The notes under the pieces were generated by a model. It searched no databases and was not told where the DNA came from. It saw only the letters and a list, made by a program, of their open reading frames with translations. DNA of 64,000 nt. Source: Thermoanaerobaculia bacterium. Lineage in GTDB: Bacteria; Acidobacteriota; Thermoanaerobaculia; Gp7-AA8. The stretch is taken from contig JADGNZ010000030.1 in NCBI GenBank assembly GCA_017883205.1, positions 1-64,000 of the forward strand, read 5' to 3'. Positions 8,380-44,264 of the stretch are shown one piece after another; within the stretch, counting starts at the first letter, position 1; every line of letters starts with the position of its first letter. The translations under genes were made by a program, and so were the position numbers.

Positions 8380-8632
8380 TCTCTCGTGAAAGGCCTGGAG
8401 CTCTTTGCGAAGTACCCCTGAGTACTTAGCGAAGTACTCCGAGTTCTTTGCGAAGTACCCTCGAGTACTTAACGAAGTACCCCCGAGTTCTTTGCGAAGT
8501 ACTCCGAGTACTTTGCGAAGTACTCCCGAGTACTTAACGAAGTACTCCGAGTACTTAACGAAGTACCCCCGAGTACTTTGCGAAGGACTCCGAGTACTTT
8601 GCGAAGTACTCCGAGTTCTTCGCGAAGTACTC
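8380..8632. repeat. Tandem array of 21-22 bp palindromic units
   Basis: About twelve or thirteen head-to-tail units of 21 or 22 bp, consensus TACTTTGCGAAGTACYCCGAG. Each junction is itself an inverted repeat (AAGTACT-CCG-AGTACTT), so the array is both direct and palindromic. Units vary at TTTGC/TTAAC/TTAGC and at TAC/TTC. It fills the gap between the end of rlmB and the tRNA promoter. Open frames cross it on both strands only because the unit lacks stops. There are no unique spacers, so it is not a CRISPR array. Confidence 0.85.
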
Positions 8633-15507: not shown

Positions 15508-15627
15508 TCACGGCTTCCAGCGCTTCACCAGCCGTGACCGAATGATCCGAGTGTCATGAGTGAGAAGAGCAAGGCCCATGACGCGGCAAGTCGATACGAT
15601 TACACGGGTATCGAGCAGTAGCGTCAT
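15508..15627 (-). pseudogene. Internally deleted PIN-domain (VapC-like) toxin remnant
   Basis: A 39-codon frame that starts exactly where a vapC should, its ATG overlapping the antitoxin stop as ATGA. It begins MTLLLDTRVIV, like a PIN domain N-terminus with the first catalytic Asp, and then jumps to RVMGLALLTHDTRIIRSR, which resembles the C-terminal PIN strand (LVTxDxxI). The middle 80-90 residues, with the other acidic residues, are missing. I infer an internal deletion and loss of toxin activity. Too short to be functional as read. Confidence 0.65.
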
Positions 15628-15854
15628 CGCAGCGCGTCGATCTCGTCCTCGTCCAGTGCCGGCGCGAGGGGATCATCTTGCCAGCGTGCCTTCCCTCGCA
15701 TGCGCAGCCAGGGGCGACTGTCGACATCCCCTGCCGGAACGAGGCATGCGACTACACGTCCACGCTTGGTGATCGTGATCGATTCTCCCCGCTCGTGTAC
15801 CTCGTCGATGAGTGAGAGGCATCGTGCCTTGAATTCAGAGGCCGCGACTTTCAT
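15624..15854 (-). CDS. Phd/YefM-type antitoxin
   Basis: A 76-residue protein of the Phd/YefM (VapB-like) class: MKVAASEFKARCLSLIDEV and GESITITKRGRVVACLVP form the N-terminal DNA-binding domain, and the acidic tail (DDPLAPALDEDEIDALR) would bind the toxin. The following toxin is only a remnant. Such proteins repress their own promoter. The upstream 190 bp to tsf contains an inverted ACCGCCGTTCG/CGGCGGTTCG-like sequence near 15990-16025 and no gene. Confidence 0.85.
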   Translation of the reverse strand: MKVAASEFKARCLSLIDEVHERGESITITKRGRVVACLVPAGDVDSRPWLRMRGKARWQDDPLAPALDEDEIDALR

Positions 15855-41749: not shown

Positions 41750-42232
41750 CTACGGCGCCCGCAATACGCTCTTGCAGTCGATCGTCCCCTTCAGCTTCAC
41801 GCCGTCAGCGGTCGTCGCATCAAACGTGACCACCGCAATCGACCCGTGATCGGCAACCGTCACCGTCCCGCTGCCGCTCTTGTGCTCCGTATCCACCTTG
41901 TACTCAGCCACGCGCGCGGTGATCCGTCCGAACGCAACATTCAGAAAGAAGTTATCCGTCCCCGAGGCCGCCCCCTTCGCATCCGGCACGATCAGCTGCA
42001 CGCTGTTCAGCACCTTCGGATTGTTCTCCTTCGGCAACGAGAACTGATTCCCCCACGAGCCCTTGCCCGTCATCCCCGCCGTGCAACCGCCACGATCGGT
42101 CGTCCCGTCATACGTCCCAGCATTCGCCCCGCCGGTGATGACGACATGGACAGTCTCTTTGACGTCGGCCGCGAAAAGAGCGGGAGCAGCGACGATGCTC
42201 ACAACCACCAGACTGCGAAACAAACGATTCAA
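41750..42232 (-). CDS. Secreted hypothetical protein
   Basis: A 160-residue exported protein from a TTG at 42232 (MNRLFRSLVVVSIVAAPALF, cleavage near AAD) with GGAGG six bases upstream. The mature part is beta-rich with two Cys (TTDRGGCTAGMTGKGSWGNQ and GTIDCKSVLRAP) that could form a disulfide. Not recognised. The longer open frame to 42361 is not used because it lacks a signal and crosses a repeat. Confidence 0.65.
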   Translation of the reverse strand: MNRLFRSLVVVSIVAAPALFAADVKETVHVVITGGANAGTYDGTTDRGGCTAGMTGKGSWGNQFSLPKENNPKVLNSVQLIVPDAKGAASGTDNFFLNVAFGRITARVAEYKVDTEHKSGSGTVTVADHGSIAVVTFDATTADGVKLKGTIDCKSVLRAP

Positions 42233-42339
42233 TGGAGCCTCCTGTTTTCTGCGGCTTCGCCGCGTTGTCGGTTGTCGGTTGACGGCCGACCACGTTTCAA
42301 ATTTTGGTTGGTATTGTAAACAGAGCTGAAGGCGTTCGT

Positions 42340-42652
42340 TCAGAGTCTGAGCCCAAGCCACTGCCCCACTGCTGCGTCAACCGCGGCGAGTTGCTCCGGC
42401 CGAAGGCCGCCAAGCCGGCGCAGGAGTTTCGCGTGGGGAACCGTCACGATGCCTTGCACATCGAACGCTCCCGCCTTCAAGAAGCCAACGGGGACAACGC
42501 GGGTTCCGCGAAGTGCTGTCGTATGCGGAACCAGTGCGACCAGTGCCCGAATCTGTGTCCTCCGCCGGAACGCTTACGACCAGGCATGGCCGGACCTTTG
42601 CCGCCAGCCCAAGATCCACGAGCCAGACCTCCCCGCGGCGCGGATCGTTCAC
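42340..42652 (-). pseudogene. MazF/PemK-family toxin, frameshifted
   Basis: From a GTG at 42652 (overlapping the antitoxin stop as GTGA) the frame reads MNDPRRGEVWLVDLGLAAKV, RPCLVVSVPAEDTD, then leaves the family pattern. One base later the next frame continues ALVALVPHTTALRGTR, VPVGFLKAGAFDVQGIVTVP and HAKLLRRLGGL, ending with a stop at 42340. Removing one T in GATTCGG would restore DTDRALVALVP. It is therefore a one-base insertion (or a sequencing error) in an otherwise complete toxin. Confidence 0.75.
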
Positions 42653-42837
42653 TCGCTCTGTTCCATCCGATCGTAGCTGAGGAATACGGCATCCGCCGCG
42701 CCCACCAACTCCTCGTCAGTTGCCTCGGGGTAGTCGATATCCCGCGAGATTCTGAGAAGGCTCGCAAGGACCTCGCGCTTTTCGGCGTCGGATAGCGACG
42801 CGAAATTCTCCACGATGTGCTGCGCAGCGGCGGTCAT
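42649..42837 (-). CDS. Antitoxin partner of the MazF-like toxin
   Basis: A 62-residue acidic protein (MTAAAQHIVENFASLSDAEK, EVLASLLRISRDIDYPEATD) immediately before the toxin, with a four-base overlap. It has no recognisable DNA-binding motif. The start ATG at 42837 is chosen; the frame is open to 42951 without family support. The type is inferred from position and size, as antitoxins of this shape precede PemK toxins. Confidence 0.65.
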   Translation of the reverse strand: MTAAAQHIVENFASLSDAEKREVLASLLRISRDIDYPEATDEELVGAADAVFLSYDRMEQSE

Positions 42838-43920: not shown

Positions 43921-44012
43921 TGGGGGACGTCCCCTTTTCTGGCGAGAGGAGTCAGGCGCACTAAAGTTGGTAACTGCACCACTAAAAATGGAACTTAGAC
44001 AAAATGAGAATC

Positions 44013-44264
44013 CATGAACGGTAAATCGGAATCCGTTAACGGTAAACCGGAATCCGTTAACGGTAAATCGGAATCCGTTAACGGTAAACGGGAATCCATG
44101 AACGGTAAATCGGAATCCATGAACGGTAAATCGGAATCCATGAACGGTAAACGGGAATCCGTGAATGAGAAACCGGAGTCCGTGAAGGTGAAACCAGATC
44201 ACGTGAACGTGAAATCAGATCACCTGAGCGGGAAGTCGGAACCTGCGAGCGGGAAGAGAGAACG
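44013..44264. repeat. 21-bp minisatellite, twelve units
   Basis: Twelve contiguous units of exactly 21 bp with consensus ATGAACGGTAAATCGGAATC plus C. Early units are nearly identical (ATG/GTT and TCG/CCG/CGG changes), and later ones decay toward GTGAACGTGAAATCAGATCA and GCGAGCGGGAAGAGAGAACG. The array runs into a dispersed hairpin (copy B). Both strands are open across it: the plus frame would be a seven-residue repeat (NGKSESM type), the minus frame HGFRFTV type. I treat it as DNA repeat rather than gene. Confidence 0.85.

Follow-up and report, generated by a model that had tools for sequence, protein, structure and literature searches.

Probable toxin-first decay of a chromosomal MazF/PemK module in Acidobacteriota

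A MazF/PemK toxin gene in the window, that is, in the whole 64,000-nucleotide stretch of DNA analysed here, is damaged beside an antitoxin gene of full length. From the sequences compared, the explanation is in our view very probably that a chromosomal MazF module of Acidobacteriota is truly decaying step by step, with the toxin going first. Two lesions in the toxin gene, intact relatives in other genomes, a decayed locus in a congener and a toxin-first asymmetry across the phylum sample were observed directly. The module would be a type II pair made of an mRNA endonuclease toxin of MazF/PemK fold and a small uncharacterised antitoxin. At least two events would have inactivated the toxin: around codon 35 it gained a net one base, and around codon 52 it lost nine bases in frame. 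The antitoxin is still of full length. We infer that the toxin product is inactive and that the decay proceeded through relaxed selection; the order of the insertion and the deletion is likewise a matter of inference. A toxin-first order is to be expected because loss of the antitoxin first leaves an active toxin.

Results

The toxin gene lies on the reverse strand (42652-42340), starts with GTG at 42652 and has a broken frame. Directly upstream, on the same strand, is the small antitoxin gene (42649..42837), whose 62 codons run from an ATG at 42837 to a stop at 42651-42649 that overlaps the toxin start as GTGA; this is the layout of a type II operon, and adjacent pairs were found in 16 genomes. 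The first part of the toxin (42550..42652, reverse strand) encodes about 34 N-terminal residues in the frame of the GTG and matches positions 1-29 of the PF02452 profile (E 0.0076); past residue 34 this frame stays open out of register until a stop at 42377. The second part (42340..42549, reverse strand) encodes about 69 C-terminal residues and the stop at 42342-42340 in a second frame, and matches profile positions 70-108 (E 0.014). Either match alone is sub-threshold, the scores being 16.9 and 16.0 bits where 23.1 is required, whereas intact relatives reach 47-56, and the window toxin shows no full-length PF02452 domain above the curated cut-off in a single open frame. A protein search of the genome recovered part 1 (query 1-36) at E 1.6e-16 and part 2 (query 33-104) at E 2.3e-40, values that are not independent since the query was the window's own toxin sequence. 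Both halves align with independent relatives (G027, G116, G118, G133 and a Spirulina MAG) at 60-68% identity. Judged from these comparisons, the homology of both halves to MazF/PemK far exceeds chance, and the window copy is, on its sequence, a pseudogene of family PF02452. In an initial annotation, a single extra base was said to disrupt a MazF-like toxin next to an intact antitoxin, and the two PF02452 halves in two frames bear this out.

Alignment of the DNA with six relatives (the five above and G010, which is itself already broken) places the net one-base insertion in the motif GATTCGG on the reverse strand (42547..42553). The motif had been named correctly in the initial annotation; the position is 42553-42547 instead of the 42554-42560 given there, about seven bases off. 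The same alignment revealed a second lesion that does not fit the earlier view of the rest of the gene as well preserved: at the junction 42494..42495 (reverse strand), nine bases are missing from the window copy, corresponding to three codons of a conserved segment that reads R-F-E-V, or nearly so, in the six relatives. Among these aligned sequences the window is alone in having both the insertion and the gap. In a structural model of an intact relative, of low confidence (mean pLDDT 51.5), the segment lies within a predicted strand (51-57), which is no more than suggestive. Both toxin halves score weakly in codon usage, at about +2, which leaves the event undated.

Could an error of sequencing or assembly have split a toxin that the organism itself encodes in one frame, as the initial annotation had allowed on equal terms? 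The event is a single base in a draft assembly, known from that assembly alone, and a second PF02452 toxin of the same genome, on contig C65, is likewise split by a change of frame. The gene carries, however, the separate nine-base deletion, which is not a typical base-call error, such that one base-call error is insufficient to explain the broken toxin; the insertion site is not a homopolymer; and the locus of the congener G002 is also decayed. A codon-usage screen for frameshifts across 440 kb of the genome returned 1 candidate among 325 coding segments and, as the screen found 35 of 94 simulated one-base insertions (37%), no more than a few background frameshifts would be expected in 333 kb of coding sequence. 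In addition, each of the 29 PIN toxin domains detected in the genome has an open frame. We regard an error as very improbable, and the second lesion together with the decay in the congener led us to reject it as the main explanation.

The initial annotation had also named programmed frameshifting at this spot as something that would refute a broken toxin. A programmed +1 shift at GATTCGG would agree with the residues downstream of the switch being conserved and in a usable frame. Nevertheless, intact relatives are read through in one frame and need no shift, the shift position is common to none of them, and toxins broken in place in other genomes (G010, G307 and G484) have their breaks elsewhere. 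By eye, GAT-TCG-G presents no recognised slippery or hungry-codon signal. With the site not conserved and the homologues continuous, programmed frameshifting was discarded, and we give it next to no credence.

Continuous toxins were found in G027, G116, G118, G133, G113, the Spirulina MAG and a Verrucomicrobia MAG, and in eleven further cases from the phylum sample. In G027, G116, G118, G133 and the Spirulina MAG a one-frame, full-length toxin adjoins an antitoxin of the same family as that of the window, the Spirulina toxin being 68% identical and paired with the same antitoxin type. Intact pairs occur in five genomes of the class, and in G117 the antitoxin stands as an orphan. The strongest intact toxins of the class-wide toxin search, from five genomes, all adjoin an antitoxin, and this search returned no strongly matching intact toxin without one. 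Among viral contigs, there was no relative of toxin part 2.

The orthologous locus in the congener is anchored by the neighbouring gene (41750..42293, reverse strand; product KETVHVVITGGANAGTYDGTT...), which G002 has in the same place with 81% DNA identity over about 590 bp (L009 1982-2567). There, the toxin is lost after about eight codons and the antitoxin is frameshifted by a one-base deletion. A 21-bp tandem array (L009 1776-1949) now occupies the site where the toxin was lost. Other members of the same family show further states: G012 retains an antitoxin of full length beside a toxin truncated after about 11 codons, G009 has the antitoxin and no toxin, G003 has a truncated antitoxin, and G010 has toxin pieces, broken at other positions, without an antitoxin. 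Over the class and phylum samples of Acidobacteriota, the antitoxin is accompanied by a full toxin at 16 loci, seven more have a full-length antitoxin with the toxin broken or absent (G000, the genome of the window, and G009, G012, G117, G307, G394 and G484), and two have both genes damaged (G002 and G003), in counts that leave out L134 (a weak match) and L135 (at a contig end) and are not corrected for shared ancestry. G351, with a frame change near the toxin C-terminus, is borderline. Part of the decay in the family could stem from a single early event whose traces have since vanished, and some of the relatives classed as broken could be assembly errors, the sample consisting of one representative genome per species in mostly fragmented assemblies.

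A second damaged toxin-antitoxin pair had been proposed for the window, of which a plausible vapC remnant stands. A Phd/YefM-type antitoxin (15624..15854, reverse strand) matches PF02604 above the cut-off (E 7.1e-10), and the 39-codon ORF that follows it (15508..15627, reverse strand) resembles, by eye only, a VapC reduced to its two ends. This ORF has no Pfam match, being too short for any profile, and gave chance-level matches only against the PIN toxins of the same genome. Damage to toxins throughout the genome was rejected: besides the PIN domains, all of them open, five PF02452 toxins are in one frame against two that are split, the window copy and the C65 copy. The latter (G000:C65:112171-112478; L004 1349-1891) is a distantly related PF02452 toxin in two frames with a full-length antitoxin-like ORF upstream.

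Tandem arrays with units of 21-22 bp, of differing sequences, recur in the genome; two are in the window (8403-8632 and 44008-44209) and others at L101, L102, L103, L107, L108, L109, L111, L112, L114 and L116. A period of 21-22 was found in 16 of the 27 tandem-repeat rows (at least 5 copies, period at least 12) in 440 kb, where rows can overlap. A literature search on such recurring arrays returned nothing.

Discussion

The antitoxin is 61% identical to that of G012 and 38-53% identical to further members, some of which are paired with intact MazF toxins, and the residues M1, F12, L15, A48 and F52 are common to ten members of the family in alignment. Searches of Pfam, NCBIfam, PADLOC and PDB gave no credible match to it or to its family, and the family is called undescribed here in the sense of absence from these four libraries. 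By sequence, it would fall outside the known antitoxin families that were searched (MazE/AbrB, RHH, Phd/YefM and others). The locus points to a family, unnamed in the libraries used, that partners MazF in Acidobacteriota and in at least one cyanobacterial MAG.

It may be asked whether selection maintains the orphan antitoxin, for anti-addiction or as a stand-alone regulator, which would make the present state an adaptive end point and not a transient step in decay. Such a reading is compatible with a broken toxin and competes only over the present role of the antitoxin. Full-length antitoxins without a working toxin occur in four genomes of the class (G000, G009, G012 and G117) and in three more of the phylum, dN/dS between the window and G002 antitoxins is about 0.25 over 47 codons, and anti-addiction is a documented role of chromosomal antitoxins (PMC2654758). 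However, the antitoxin is frameshifted in G002 and truncated in G003, and the dN/dS spans time in which the toxin was still present, so it reports past constraint that is not assignable to the period after the loss. Upstream of the antitoxin, a scan for the sigma-70-type consensus found no promoter-like site. We find retention by selection unlikely; the more specific proposal, that an undescribed antitoxin family has repeatedly been kept after the loss of MazF as anti-addiction against incoming MazF modules in Acidobacteriota, we hold to be decidedly unlikely.

Toxin-first decay, the reading we prefer, is an instance of a known phenomenon, since decayed toxins with surviving antitoxins are documented elsewhere. 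What the locus offers is a well-sampled, clean case of toxin-antitoxin modules dying toxin-first, with lesions that differ among related genomes; the understanding of toxin-antitoxin biology is unchanged by it.

Among toxins of known structure, the nearest PDB matches are M. tuberculosis MazF7 and MazF9 (5wyg, 1.3e-12; 5hjz, 8.9e-10), which the window toxin resembles in fold family by profile, its intact relatives exceeding the Pfam cut-off. Unlike those toxins, the window copy is spread over two frames and is without three conserved residues, and, in contrast to MazF/PemK pairs, its partner belongs to no recognised MazE family. In this last respect the pair sll1130/ssl2245 of Synechocystis is similar, in which a PemK toxin lies downstream of a small unclassified antitoxin annotated as hypothetical (PMC4963859), a likeness drawn by description only; the Synechocystis hypothetical antitoxins may or may not be of the same family as the window antitoxin. 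Frameshifted or pseudogene toxins with a surviving antitoxin have been reported for YacB of Shigella and parE of Caulobacter, together with the decaying ccdO157 of E. coli and many orphan antitoxins, including those of Klebsiella (PMC7354431, PMC2654758). There, as in the window, the toxin has been inactivated with the antitoxin kept, or decay is ongoing, but the toxin family and the host phylum are others, and the window case, in contrast to these precedents, has been followed across a family in which the lesions differ from one relative to the next.
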